Notes under the pieces: generated by a model
What the model saw: the letters and a program-made list of their open reading frames with translations, nothing else
What the model was told of the DNA's origin: nothing
Database searches by the model: none
DNA from: Hymenobacter sp. DG01
GTDB lineage: Bacteria > Bacteroidota > Bacteroidia > Cytophagales > Hymenobacteraceae
DNA: 64,000 bases
Assembly (NCBI RefSeq): GCF_006352025.1
Contig: NZ_CP040936.1
Location: 3,970,001-4,034,000 of the forward strand
Reading direction: 5' to 3'
In this document: positions 29,481 to 32,945 of the stretch, in pieces
Layout: each line of letters starts with the position of its first letter
Numbering within the stretch: position 1 is the first letter of the stretch
Position numbers and translations under genes: made by a program

Positions 29481-30188
29481 ATGGTAGCACCGTCAGTCCC
29501 GATCAATTGCCAGGGCTGTCCGCATCACGGGCAGTCGTTGCTAGGAGCCTGCCAACACAATGAGCTGAACCTGATTGCCGCCGGTAAGCTCCACCAGTCG
29601 TACCATAAGGGCCAGGTGATTTTCCAGCAAGGCAGCCGTCCGGGCGGGATTTACTGCATACACCAGGGGAAGGTGAAAATCTCAAAGATCAGCGCCGACG
29701 GGAAGGAGCAGATTGTGCGCCTGGCCAAGGAGGGTGATGTGCTGGGCTACCGGTCCCTGATGATGGGCGGCAACTTCTCTACCGCCGCTACCGCTCTCAC
29801 CGACTGTGTGGTGTGCCTGGTGCCCCGCGCCGATTTCTTCAGCATCATCAGCCAGAATCCGCAGTTTTCTCAGGCCCTCATGCGCCTGCTGGCCCAGGCC
29901 CTGGGCGAAACCGAGGAGCGCCTGCTGCACACGGCCTATAAGCCCGTGCGCGAGCGGCTGGCCGAGGCCCTGCTGATGCTGCACAGCCTGTTTCACCCTG
30001 GCACCGACGCCCGCTTCAGCATCCCTATCTCCCGCGACGACCTGGCTGCCCTGATGGGTACGGCCAAAGAAACCGCCAGCCGCCTGCTCTCGGAGCTGCG
30101 GGAAGAGGGGCTGGTTGTAACACAAGGCAGCCGAATCACGGTGCTGGATGTGGCACGCCTGCGCCAGGTAGCCACTATGTACAGCTAG
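29481..30188 (+). CDS. Crp/Fnr-family regulator with N-terminal cysteines
   Basis: A 235-residue transcription regulator. The N-terminus holds C10, C13 and C24 (CQGCPHHGQSLLGAC), a spacing that recalls the iron-sulfur cysteines of FNR; further cysteines are C59 and the pair in TDCVVC near 108. A cyclic-nucleotide-binding-type barrel follows (GQVIFQQGSRPGGIYCIHQG). It ends in a Crp-type helix-turn-helix, ISRDDLAALMGTAKETASRL. Oxygen or redox sensing is plausible but not shown. It is followed by a perfect terminator, then the roadblock/LC7 cluster on the same strand; co-regulation is inference. Confidence 0.9.
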   Translation: MVAPSVPINCQGCPHHGQSLLGACQHNELNLIAAGKLHQSYHKGQVIFQQGSRPGGIYCIHQGKVKISKISADGKEQIVRLAKEGDVLGYRSLMMGGNFSTAATALTDCVVCLVPRADFFSIISQNPQFSQALMRLLAQALGETEERLLHTAYKPVRERLAEALLMLHSLFHPGTDARFSIPISRDDLAALMGTAKETASRLLSELREEGLVVTQGSRITVLDVARLRQVATMYS

Positions 30189-30250
30189 TTTTGGGCAAGT
30201 CCGCGAAAAATTGTTGCAGAGGCAAAACCAGAAATTATCCAAATCCGTAT

Positions 30251-30280
30251 AGCCCCACGCAAATAAAAAAGCGTGGGGCT
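30251..30280 (+). terminator. Terminator of the Crp/Fnr gene
   Basis: AGCCCCACGC and GCGTGGGGCT form a perfect 10-bp stem around a 10-base A-rich loop, then ATTTGTTTT. Confidence 0.85.
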
Positions 30281-30636
30281 ATTTGTTTTAGCCGGGGATA
30301 GAGAGTAAGTTAGAGGAAATTGTATTATAGTGTTCCTAAAATGGGTTCCCAGTATGGAAAGCGTGGGAATAATTTAATAAATATCATTTTTTAAGTTGAT
30401 GTCAATCATTTTTTAGAGGGGTGAATCAGGGGAAATTTGTGGAGTAAGTCAGCCTGTGTTCGGTTATGTTTTGCCGGGTTCAAGGCGTCTCACACAAGTT
30501 TTATTACTACTTCTTTTACGTCGCCGGATAGCAGGCCAACGCGTGGGCTGGGGCAGGGTGGCAGAAGAGGAACAGGCGGCTTGTGCGGAATGGCTTTTTC
30601 ACTTCCTCATCTCCATAGTTTCATCAACTTAATAGC
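30281..30636. other. AT-rich leader region of the roadblock cluster
   Basis: 356 bases, AT-rich from 30300 to 30440 and then GC-rich up to the roadblock gene start at 30637. It probably carries the cluster promoter. No convincing open frame; the open frame at 30437 overlaps the next gene out of frame and is not gene-like. Confidence 0.45.
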
Positions 30637-31014
30637 ATGGCTTACTCAGTTAACAACCCCGCCGGAAAAGTAATTGACGGTATTCTGCAGGATCTGCCGG
30701 GCCTGATGGCCGTGGCCGTGGTAGATACGAACTCAGGCATGAGCCTGGCCTCGCACTCCAACACGCCCTCCATCAACCCTGACACGGCCGCTGCTTACAA
30801 CACCGAAGTAGTAAAGCAAAAGCAGAAGGCCATGGCCGCCCTCAAGCTTCAGGGCGAAGCCATTGAGGACATCCTCATTACCCTCTCCAACCAGATTCAC
30901 CTGCTGAAACTGACCGAGAACAACAAGTTTATCTACTTGGTAGTGAACTCCCGCGACACCAACCTGGCTATTGCCCGCGAGGTGCTGCGCTCCCACGCCG
31001 GCAACCTCAACTAA
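30637..31014 (+). CDS. Roadblock/LC7-like protein 1
   Basis: A 125-residue cytoplasmic protein resembling roadblock/LC7 (MglB-type) domains: a helix VIDGILQDLPGLMAVAVVDT, strand-turn SGMSLASHSN, helix NTEVVKQKQKAMAAL, strand DILITLSNQIHLLKL, strand FIYLVVNSRDTNLAIAREV. Roadblock proteins dimerise and commonly act on or with small Ras-like GTPases. It shares most positions with the protein at 32433 and fewer with 31184. It is the first of three homologues on this strand. No GTPase gene lies in the window. Confidence 0.75.
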   Translation: MAYSVNNPAGKVIDGILQDLPGLMAVAVVDTNSGMSLASHSNTPSINPDTAAAYNTEVVKQKQKAMAALKLQGEAIEDILITLSNQIHLLKLTENNKFIYLVVNSRDTNLAIAREVLRSHAGNLN

Positions 31015-31183
31015 ACCCCACGCAGCGGCTAACGCAACGGCACGGGAGCGGCAGGCCCACCAGCGGCCTGCCGCTCCGGATGCCGACCTGTAGTGGTGGG
31101 CGGCGGCCCGGTAACCGGTTGACATCTGGCGGCAGCGTATGGCTGCGCGGCCGGATGGCAACGCTTTTCGTGGGCAAATCTTC

Positions 31184-31633
31184 ATGCAACTACCCTTTCT
31201 GAATCGGCTACAAGGCCTGACCGGGCCGGTAGTCAACAAGATTGTCTCGTCTGGGGGGGCGGCGGGACCCGAGCGGCTGACCGCCGAGCGGATTCTGCAG
31301 CACGTGCTGGCAGGGCTGCCAGAGCTGGTCGCGGCCGCCGTGGTGCAGGTAGAGAGCAGCCAGGCCCTGGCTACTTATACCACCGCCCGCGAGTTCAACT
31401 TAAGCAAAGTGCTCGGCCACAACGCCGAGGTTATCCGGCAGCAGCGCCTGGCGCTGGCTGCCTTGCGCCTGCCAGCCGAGGAGCAGCTGGAAGAAGTGCT
31501 GATTACGCTCCAGACCCAACTACACTTATTGCGGCTGCTCCCCGACGGGCGCCGGTTTCTCTATGTGGTCGTGGATTGCCGAGACACCAACCTGGGTATT
31601 GCCCGGGAAGTGATGCGCACCTGCGAGGACTAA
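31184..31633 (+). CDS. Roadblock/LC7-like protein 2 (divergent)
   Basis: 149 residues from the ATG at 31184 (MQLPFLNRLQGLTGPVVNKI); the ATG at 31139 would add 15 residues. The core matches its neighbours in HNAEVIRQQRLALAAL, EEVLITLQTQLHLLRL and YVVVDCRDTNLGIAREV. It differs in the first half (YTTAREFNLSKVLG), where the others have a His-Ser-Asn loop. It has an extra N-terminal helix. Predicted cytoplasmic. Divergence within a triplet suggests heterodimers or a distinct partner (inference). Confidence 0.75.
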   Translation: MQLPFLNRLQGLTGPVVNKIVSSGGAAGPERLTAERILQHVLAGLPELVAAAVVQVESSQALATYTTAREFNLSKVLGHNAEVIRQQRLALAALRLPAEEQLEEVLITLQTQLHLLRLLPDGRRFLYVVVDCRDTNLGIAREVMRTCED

Positions 31634-31705
31634 GGCAACCCGGGACGGGTAGGGGTGGTAGCGGCTATCTTTTTCATCTCTCACCCTTTTATCCCACTGC
31701 ATGTC

Positions 31706-32395
31706 ATGAAACTTACTGCTTCTCCTTTTGATCCGCAAACCGGCGAGCTGTTGCCCGTGTACCAGGATGCCTACCTGCGCGGCGACCTGAGCAAGGCCTC
31801 GGCCCGGGCCGTGGAAGAATACCTGCGCCGCGACGCCGACCAGGCCCACGGTACGCTCACGCGCTGGCAGCAGCTGCAGGCCGCCGAAGAGGCTGGCTCG
31901 GCTCCTACCTGGGTGCAGAAACAGATTCAGTATATCCGGGCCGAGCCCGTACGCTTCCGCCGCCGCGCTACCACGCTGGTTGCCTCGGCCGTGCTGGTAG
32001 GCACCGTGGTTTTCGCGGGCACCAGCCTGCCCACCGAGCGCACCCCCACCGACAACCTGCCCACCGACGTAGCTACTACGGAAGTGCTGGAAGCCGGCGC
32101 TTCGGCTGAAATGGCCTCCTCGGCGGCTTCTATGCGCATGATTACCGTGCGTGGCATCATTAAGGGCGAAAACGGTAAGCCCCTGGTAGGCGCTACCGTA
32201 ATCCAGCCCGGCAGCCTGCGTGGGGTATCAACCAACGCTGAGGGCGAGTACGTGCTGGCCGTTCCGGCCGGTACTACCTCCCTGAAGTATGGCTATGGTG
32301 GCTACCAGGATGAAGAAGTGGCCGTAAAGGGCTCCCGCACCGCCGACGTAACCCTGCTGCCCCGCCAGCAGAAAAAGCGCTGGCTGATTTTCTAG
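31706..32395 (+). CDS. Single-TM protein with C-terminal carboxypeptidase-regulatory-like domain
   Basis: 229 residues from the ATG at 31706. The N-terminal 95 residues are soluble and helical (GELLPVYQDAYLRGDLSKAS, AVEEYLRRDADQAHGTL), similar in layout to the cytoplasmic part of anti-sigma factors but with no zinc-binding His/Cys motif. One TM helix follows (TTLVASAVLVGTVVFAGTSL). The outer part has a linker, then a CarboxypepD_reg-like beta domain (VRGIIKGENGKPLVGATVI, STNAEGEYVLAVPAG). It would link cytoplasm to envelope. It lies between roadblock genes 2 and 3. A -7-like TATCTTTT is at 31666. Confidence 0.75.
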   Translation: MKLTASPFDPQTGELLPVYQDAYLRGDLSKASARAVEEYLRRDADQAHGTLTRWQQLQAAEEAGSAPTWVQKQIQYIRAEPVRFRRRATTLVASAVLVGTVVFAGTSLPTERTPTDNLPTDVATTEVLEAGASAEMASSAASMRMITVRGIIKGENGKPLVGATVIQPGSLRGVSTNAEGEYVLAVPAGTTSLKYGYGGYQDEEVAVKGSRTADVTLLPRQQKKRWLIF

Positions 32396-32432
32396 GCGTT
32401 TTCTGCGCCTGGGTACTTAGTAGATAGAGTTA

Positions 32433-32885
32433 GTGAAGCCGAAATCCTACCGCCGAAAAGCCTCTCACCGTACGCTGCGCAAACCCGTTCCGGAGTTCAA
32501 CGTCCCGGACCCGGTAGCCACTGAAGTAGTGGAAAACGTACGGGCTGAGCTGCCCCAGCTGCTGGCCGTGGCCGTGGTGGACGTGGAGTCGGGAGCCTGC
32601 CTGGCGGCCCATTCCAACTCGCCCGCCATCGACCCCAGCACGGCCGCGGCCTACAACGCGGAAGTGGTCAGGCAGAAGCAGAAAGCCATGGCGGCCCTGG
32701 CGCTGGTCGATGAGCACATCGAGGACATTCTCGTGACGCTTTCCAGCCAGCTGCATCTGCTCCAGCTGACTGCCACCGGCGACCGGCTGATTTACCTCGT
32801 GGTGAAGGCCCAGGATACCAGCCTGGCCCTGGCCCGCGAGGTGCTGCGCGGGCAGGTAAGCCAGCTGGAGCTGGTAGCCGGCTAA
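32433..32885 (+). CDS. Roadblock/LC7-like protein 3
   Basis: 150 residues from the GTG at 32433, 37 bases after the previous stop. The N-terminal 25 residues are basic (MKPKSYRRKASHRTLRKP). The core is very close to protein 1: LLAVAVVDVESGACLAAHSN, AAAYNAEVVRQKQKAMAAL, EDILVTLSSQLHLLQL and LVVKAQDTSLALAREV. Close similarity to protein 1 points to recent duplication, with the membrane-protein gene inserted or retained between copies. Cytoplasmic. It is followed by an 18-bp terminator that closes the cluster. Confidence 0.75.
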   Translation: MKPKSYRRKASHRTLRKPVPEFNVPDPVATEVVENVRAELPQLLAVAVVDVESGACLAAHSNSPAIDPSTAAAYNAEVVRQKQKAMAALALVDEHIEDILVTLSSQLHLLQLTATGDRLIYLVVKAQDTSLALAREVLRGQVSQLELVAG

Positions 32886-32905: not shown

Positions 32906-32945
32906 GCAAAAGCTCCTCTTCTGGATTCAGAAGAGGAGCTTTTGC
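32906..32945. terminator. Terminator, 18-bp perfect stem
   Basis: Arms 32906-32923 and 32928-32945 are perfectly complementary around GATT. It lies between roadblock gene 3 and the convergent SDR gene. Confidence 0.85.

Follow-up and report, generated by a model that had tools for sequence, protein, structure and literature searches.

A locus in the 64-kb stretch of DNA from Hymenobacter sp. DG01 that we analysed (contig NZ_CP040936.1; the whole stretch is called the window below) may encode a roadblock scaffold that is linked to the membrane and functions independently of any small GTPase, a reading for and against which we regard the case as evenly balanced. The locus holds three genes for roadblock-type proteins (R1, R2 and R3) and one for a membrane protein (M), downstream of a Crp/Fnr regulator gene. 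Most of what is known of roadblock proteins concerns their role in regulating or anchoring small GTPases. The roadblock kind itself is thus familiar; what is new here is that such proteins have persisted and multiplied in association with a membrane protein while our profile searches found no small GTPase. The reading builds on the predicted fold of R1, the gene order, the co-occurrence of R and M and conserved Fnr-type sites, and from these we infer the pairing, docking, signal and output. The results support in outline the original prediction, made from the sequence alone, of a signalling or envelope-linked roadblock module. The features of the locus are as follows.

29481..30188, plus strand: Crp/Fnr-family regulator gene, with C-X2-C-X10-C, DCVVC and an E..SR recognition helix
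30249..30282, plus strand: perfect 12-bp hairpin 3' of Crp with a 10-nt loop, probable terminator
30374..30387, plus strand: Fnr-type site 1, TTAATN4ATCAT, one core mismatch
30396..30409, plus strand: Fnr-type site 2, TTGATN4ATCAT, 22 bp from site 1
30537..30546, plus strand: CAACGCGTGG element, between operator and R1
30637..31014, plus strand: R1, alpha-clade protein of 125 residues with a predicted roadblock fold
31184..31633, plus strand: R2, beta-clade roadblock homologue with the N-terminal extension MQLPFLNRL
31706..32395, plus strand: M, with a conserved N-terminal domain, a hydrophobic stretch and a CarboxypepD_reg domain
32433..32885, plus strand: R3, beta-clade roadblock homologue with a basic N-terminal tail and a GTG start
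32906..32945, plus strand: perfect 18-bp hairpin 3' of R3, probable terminator

The three small proteins proved homologous, as predicted, with open reading frames at the expected positions. R1 is 42% identical to R2 (read from 31139; the best R2 start is the ATG at 31184, which matches relatives) and 59% identical to R3. Three motif blocks had been described as common to all of them. LxTLxxQxHLLxL is indeed present in R1, R2 and R3, but AEVxxQ occurs in R2 and R3 and gives way to TEV in R1, and DTxLxIAREV occurs in R1 and R2 and reads DTSLALAREV in R3. The proposed roadblock/LC7-like identity was borne out: according to its structure model and fold comparison, R1 is a roadblock-fold protein, and the R profile matched a canonical roadblock profile at E 1.8e-5 (probability 78), or at E 0.0016 (probability 16) when only Hymenobacter-group rows were used. 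In a control, M matched the same profile at E 0.36. The cut-off of the Pfam model Robl_LC7 (PF03259) was not reached; none of 19 R proteins matched it at E up to 10, a search of the whole genome returned nothing, and two of the 19 matched the LAMTOR5 model (best E 0.0022). Taken by itself, the Robl_LC7 search would have led us to reject a roadblock identity, a verdict that the R1 fold model overturned. Sequence searches of the PDB with R1 or with a Hymenobacter-heavy profile gave no match.

The arrangement of the genes is conserved. All 20 clusters from relatives, selected for holding clustered R copies, show the order Crp, at least two R genes, M and a further R gene, while the flanking genes vary; the scatter among relatives that would have spoken against a module was not seen. 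In the best 80 loci from named genomes, M was present in 51 and a same-strand Crp gene in 20; R lay between Crp and M in all 20 of these and after M in 18 (not in L220 and L222). Three cluster types carry R and M, namely the Crp-linked one and two others, labelled b and c, that read M-R2-R1 and R-R-M without Crp. The genome of the window itself holds a second cluster, M-R2-R1 (L014 7742-9501, minus strand), which has neither Crp nor operator and adjoins presumed tsf and rpsB genes; the labels PepM1, SDR, HxlR, Lpd, tsf and rpsB are assumptions from our reading of the sequences. Seven of the 11 other fetched loci are R-R-M without Crp, and the remaining four have R without M.

Of 150 family genomes, 58 have R and 60 have the N-terminal domain of M. 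The latter was present in all 58 R-bearing genomes versus 2 of the 92 R-less ones, and these two (G098 and G132) carry a rhodopsin-linked relative. One genome counted among the 58 (G100) gave weak R and M matches only, and its fetched M region lacked R. In G056, which is R-less at the limit of the genome search and has no other part of the module, Crp is followed by a 63-residue R remnant (L277 5455-6392), and the operon can therefore be lost.

We observed two clades within the R family. A tree of 125 R proteins, for which the program warned of few columns and long branches, groups 104 Hymenobacter-group copies together (support 100/97), with the R gene of G400 as their nearest neighbour (99/85). 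The slow alpha group (91/87, inner forks drawn open) comprises position 1, b-type R1, the second c-type copy, single copies and four position-3 copies; the faster beta group (97/81) comprises position 2, b-type R2, the first c-type copy and most position-3 copies. Both are present in all 38 M-bearing clusters of the tree set (21 Crp, 10 type b, 7 type c). A second set comprises 82 loci recovered with an alpha-like motif (80 kept of 180), which biases the alpha/beta count; M lay on the same strand in 52 of them, with alpha in all 52 and beta in 48. The other 30 loci (L224, with M on the opposite strand, being scored as lacking it) had alpha only in 21 cases and both clades in 9, some labels being uncertain; the set includes distant loci, for which the label denotes the nearer profile only. 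Because the two clades occur together, heterodimers appear to be favoured over homodimers.

The outer carboxypeptidase-regulatory-like domain predicted for M was recovered (PF13715, E 1.6e-11) behind the hydrophobic stretch. Of 291 genomes from the order, 30 encode the N-terminal domain, which is marked by the blocks PF, TGELLP and YRDAYLRGDLS; 29 belong to the Hymenobacter group, and the remaining one (G187) matched weakly. In G098, G132 and G090 a bacteriorhodopsin-like gene is directly followed by a relative of M, an indication that M-type proteins act as membrane transducers; the pair may be a rhodopsin and its transducer. Bacteriorhodopsin-like genes (PF01036, E about 1e-31) followed by an M relative stand at L273 5646-7422, L274 5805-7559 and L276 5648-7448, with no R gene in the fetched DNA, and helix C of these rhodopsins has D, T and Q at what we take to be the usual motif places. 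We found no literature linking rhodopsin, Hymenobacter and carboxypeptidase. The outer domain also occurs apart from the N-terminal one: a 228-residue protein of the same genome (L172 5548-6234) has it behind a different N-terminus, and the M profile picks outer-domain matches in R-less genomes (G005, G016).

M might instead be an anti-sigma-like protein or transducer, with the R proteins as accessories that tune the grip of the N-terminal domain on a transcription factor. The position of M relatives behind a rhodopsin gene agrees with this account, as does a weak zf-HC2 similarity in 3 of 12 M N-termini (best E 0.01). However, the M protein of the window scores 13.2 bits against zf-HC2, under the cut-off of 22.2, the N-terminal domain has no solved relative at E below 1, and no sigma gene was seen among the open reading frames around the window cluster, which were judged by eye without a family search. 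We consider this account unlikely.

Another possibility is that the R proteins have remained GTPase regulators, their target being a housekeeping GTPase or one that has diverged beyond detection. Roadblock proteins commonly serve small GTPases, and in some distant relatives (L143, L142, L148 and G664) R adjoins an MglA-type GTPase and a canonical roadblock gene; the order in L143 is roadblock, 202-residue protein, GTPase, R. The original prediction had noted no GTPase gene nearby, and with Ras- and MglA-type profiles we found none near the cluster or elsewhere in the genome. Eight of the ten Ras-profile matches in this genome fall in IF-2, HflX, LepA, Era, TypA, Der and a Clp-family ATPase (Der taking two by position, one of them scanned), and the remaining two have E about 0.9. 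GTPases and canonical roadblocks were searched for in 56 chosen genomes, including 36 of the 58 R-bearing family genomes. The MglA-type profile, built from the GTPases of L143, L142 and L148, gave E below 1e-70 in its source genomes (G202, G265 and G400) and, independently, in G664, and 1e-24 and 1e-26 in G711 and G769. In none of the 36 R-bearing Hymenobacter-group genomes did it exceed 16.5 bits; weak matches in 12 of the 36 (E 0.019 to 0.0995) all lie in open frames of 600-770 codons, the one in our genome being LepA. Canonical roadblocks scored above the cut-off in 11 of the 56 genomes and in none of the 38 Hymenobacter-group genomes searched. On this evidence continued service to a GTPase seems distinctly improbable. 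Twelve of 18 distant R genomes, searched likewise, also had no MglA-type GTPase above the E 0.005 threshold; R without this GTPase is therefore not unique to Hymenobacter. Ancestral R proteins probably acted with a GTPase of the MglA type, which this lineage has since lost. Loss is the simplest account, the alternative being that R was gained without a GTPase. L148 (8680-9501) encodes a fusion of a response-regulator receiver domain with an R domain, and its genome also has an MglA-type cluster.

All five genes of the locus lie on the plus strand, with gaps of 448 bp (Crp-R1), 169 bp (R1-R2), 72 bp (R2-M) and 37 bp (M-R3). Because the hairpins sit after Crp and after R3, R1-R2-M-R3 probably forms one transcription unit, with Crp outside in a separate unit. 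The cluster originally proposed is thus upheld for these four genes, whereas Crp probably stands apart and is linked to them by a conserved operator. Neither hairpin was listed by a consensus terminator scan (the 10-nt loop of the 12-bp hairpin is above its loop limit of 8), and the hits of promoter and terminator scans were no more frequent than in shuffled sequence. Of 21 upstream regions, one (that of L064) contains TAnnTTTG, which we take to be the Bacteroidota -7 element, at a place above the operator, and we therefore propose no promoter. Measured against one near relative (L064), the ratio of nonsynonymous to synonymous substitution rates was 0.079 for R1, 0.132 for R2, 0.069 for M, 0.246 for R3 and 0.084 for Crp, making R3 the fastest-evolving of the five.

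The upstream gene encodes a cysteine-bearing Crp/Fnr protein, as predicted (PF00027, E 1e-23; PF13545, E 4.1e-19). C-X2-C-X10-C and DCxxC were conserved in all 21 loci, and the recognition helix reads E..SR in 18 and E..TR in three; we take the E..SR type to mark FNR specificity. An FNR-type helix and TTGAT-N4-ATCAA-like sites are thus both present in the sequence. TTGATN4ATCAT at 30396 is the sole exact match within the window, where one-mismatch matches are near chance (6 versus 2.04 expected; 7 of 100 shuffles reach 6). In whole Crp-to-R spacers, the full motif with at most one mismatch occurs in 12 of 21 loci versus 0.485 in shuffles (largest 3). The exact core TGATN4ATCA lies within 450 bp 5' of the first R in 13 of 21 loci versus 0.13 expected (300 simulations, largest 2). 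Control regions contained it in 1/21 (Crp upstream), 0/10 (type b), 1/11 (type c) and 0/16 (PepM1 or Lpd). Core pairs (at most one mismatch each) exactly 22 bp apart occur in 13 of 21 loci, and both boxes stand out as conserved blocks in a nine-locus alignment. Among 18 further loci, held out as lacking an exact 200-bp match to the 20 fetched triplet loci, the exact core was found in eight (0.06 expected, largest 2) and the 22-bp pair in five (0 in 300 simulations). At the sequence level the predicted operator links the regulator to the operon, and through its conserved cysteines the Fnr-like protein is probably a sensor of redox state, oxygen or nitric oxide. The CAACGCGTGG element (window 30537-30546) is invariant at 8 of 10 positions across nine aligned upstream regions. 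We found no on-topic literature on Fnr with TTGAT sites in Bacteroidetes.

If the locus is a roadblock scaffold free of a small GTPase, the Fnr-like sensor would bind the operator sites and switch the level of the R1-R2-M-R3 operon. Alpha (R1) and beta (R2, R3) proteins would then pair, with the conserved cytosolic domain of M as their docking site. M would use its CarboxypepD_reg domain to sense the envelope side and would relay its state to the roadblock assembly, and the assembly would hold or release a cytosolic partner. More tentatively, and as something possible but short of probable, we propose an obligate alpha/beta roadblock heteromer in which the transmembrane receptor M replaces the GTPase as controlling partner, with one copy redox-controlled and a receptor class shared with rhodopsin.

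Several points weigh against the scaffold. The fold model covers R1, with R2 and R3 assigned by homology, and R-R and R-M contacts are inferred by guilt by association. Same-strand M is absent from 30 of the 82 loci, beta went undetected in 4 of the 52 loci with M, and loci and genomes are related by descent, so that the counts are not independent and the Fisher value computed for the co-occurrence of R and M does not serve as a probability. The GTPase profile derives from three of its best-scoring genomes. The cysteine spacing of the regulator departs from that of E. coli FNR; four of the 18 held-out loci have no core within one mismatch, and L082 has none within 450 bp, with a weaker site further upstream. 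Types b and c lack the operator, and Fnr control is therefore not general to the module. A mere adjacency of genes by tandem duplication, with no common function, is nonetheless very improbable: some R copies do occur without M, but the order is kept although flanking genes change, three cluster types hold R and M, and the two co-occur in 58 of 58 genomes.

When the broad R profile was compared with PDB sequences, its top match among known systems was MglC of Myxococcus xanthus (PDB 7ct3, 7cy1), at a weak E of 0.0014; this profile includes distant R rows, R1-centred PDB searches were empty, and MglC is not among the 50 fold matches listed for the R1 model. In the accessible parts of two reports, MglC is sandwiched between MglB and RomR without effect on MglA GTPase activity, and an M-like membrane protein is not described (PMC10329633, PMC7949163). 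MglC acts together with MglA and MglB, and we found neither in the Hymenobacter genome. The roadblocks MglB and conservon CvnB share their fold with R1 by fold comparison, and some distant R relatives adjoin canonical roadblock and GTPase genes. Unlike them, R misses the Robl_LC7 model, and the cognate Ras-like GTPase of an MglA/MglB or conservon system was not found in the genome. Ragulator (LAMTOR1-5) differs in that no Rag GTPase was found here and M bears an outer domain.

A survey by Wuichet and Sogaard-Andersen classed 328 of 749 MglB homologues as orphans and noted that none of these had been characterised by 2014 (PMC4316618). MglC has been studied since (PMC10329633, PMC7949163), and Snodgrassella orphan mglB mutations are reported to alter colonisation (PMC11112851). 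Both cases differ from ours in that those genomes keep mglA. We found no literature joining roadblock LC7 with Hymenobacter. Hymenobacter is a culturable environmental bacterium, and the function of an orphan roadblock becomes testable in a defined operon with paralogues, a predicted regulator and no recognisable small GTPase found. This lineage has multiplied and preserved roadblock proteins with a membrane partner, hence its relevance to orphan roadblocks generally.

R is not confined to the family: at least 33 of the 291 order-level genomes and at least 25 of 395 from the phylum have it, and it also occurs in 22 plasmid records, including Streptomyces, Acinetobacter and Deinococcus. On one Acinetobacter plasmid (L283 47-1924) an R homologue lies one gene away from an annotated roadblock/LC7 gene.

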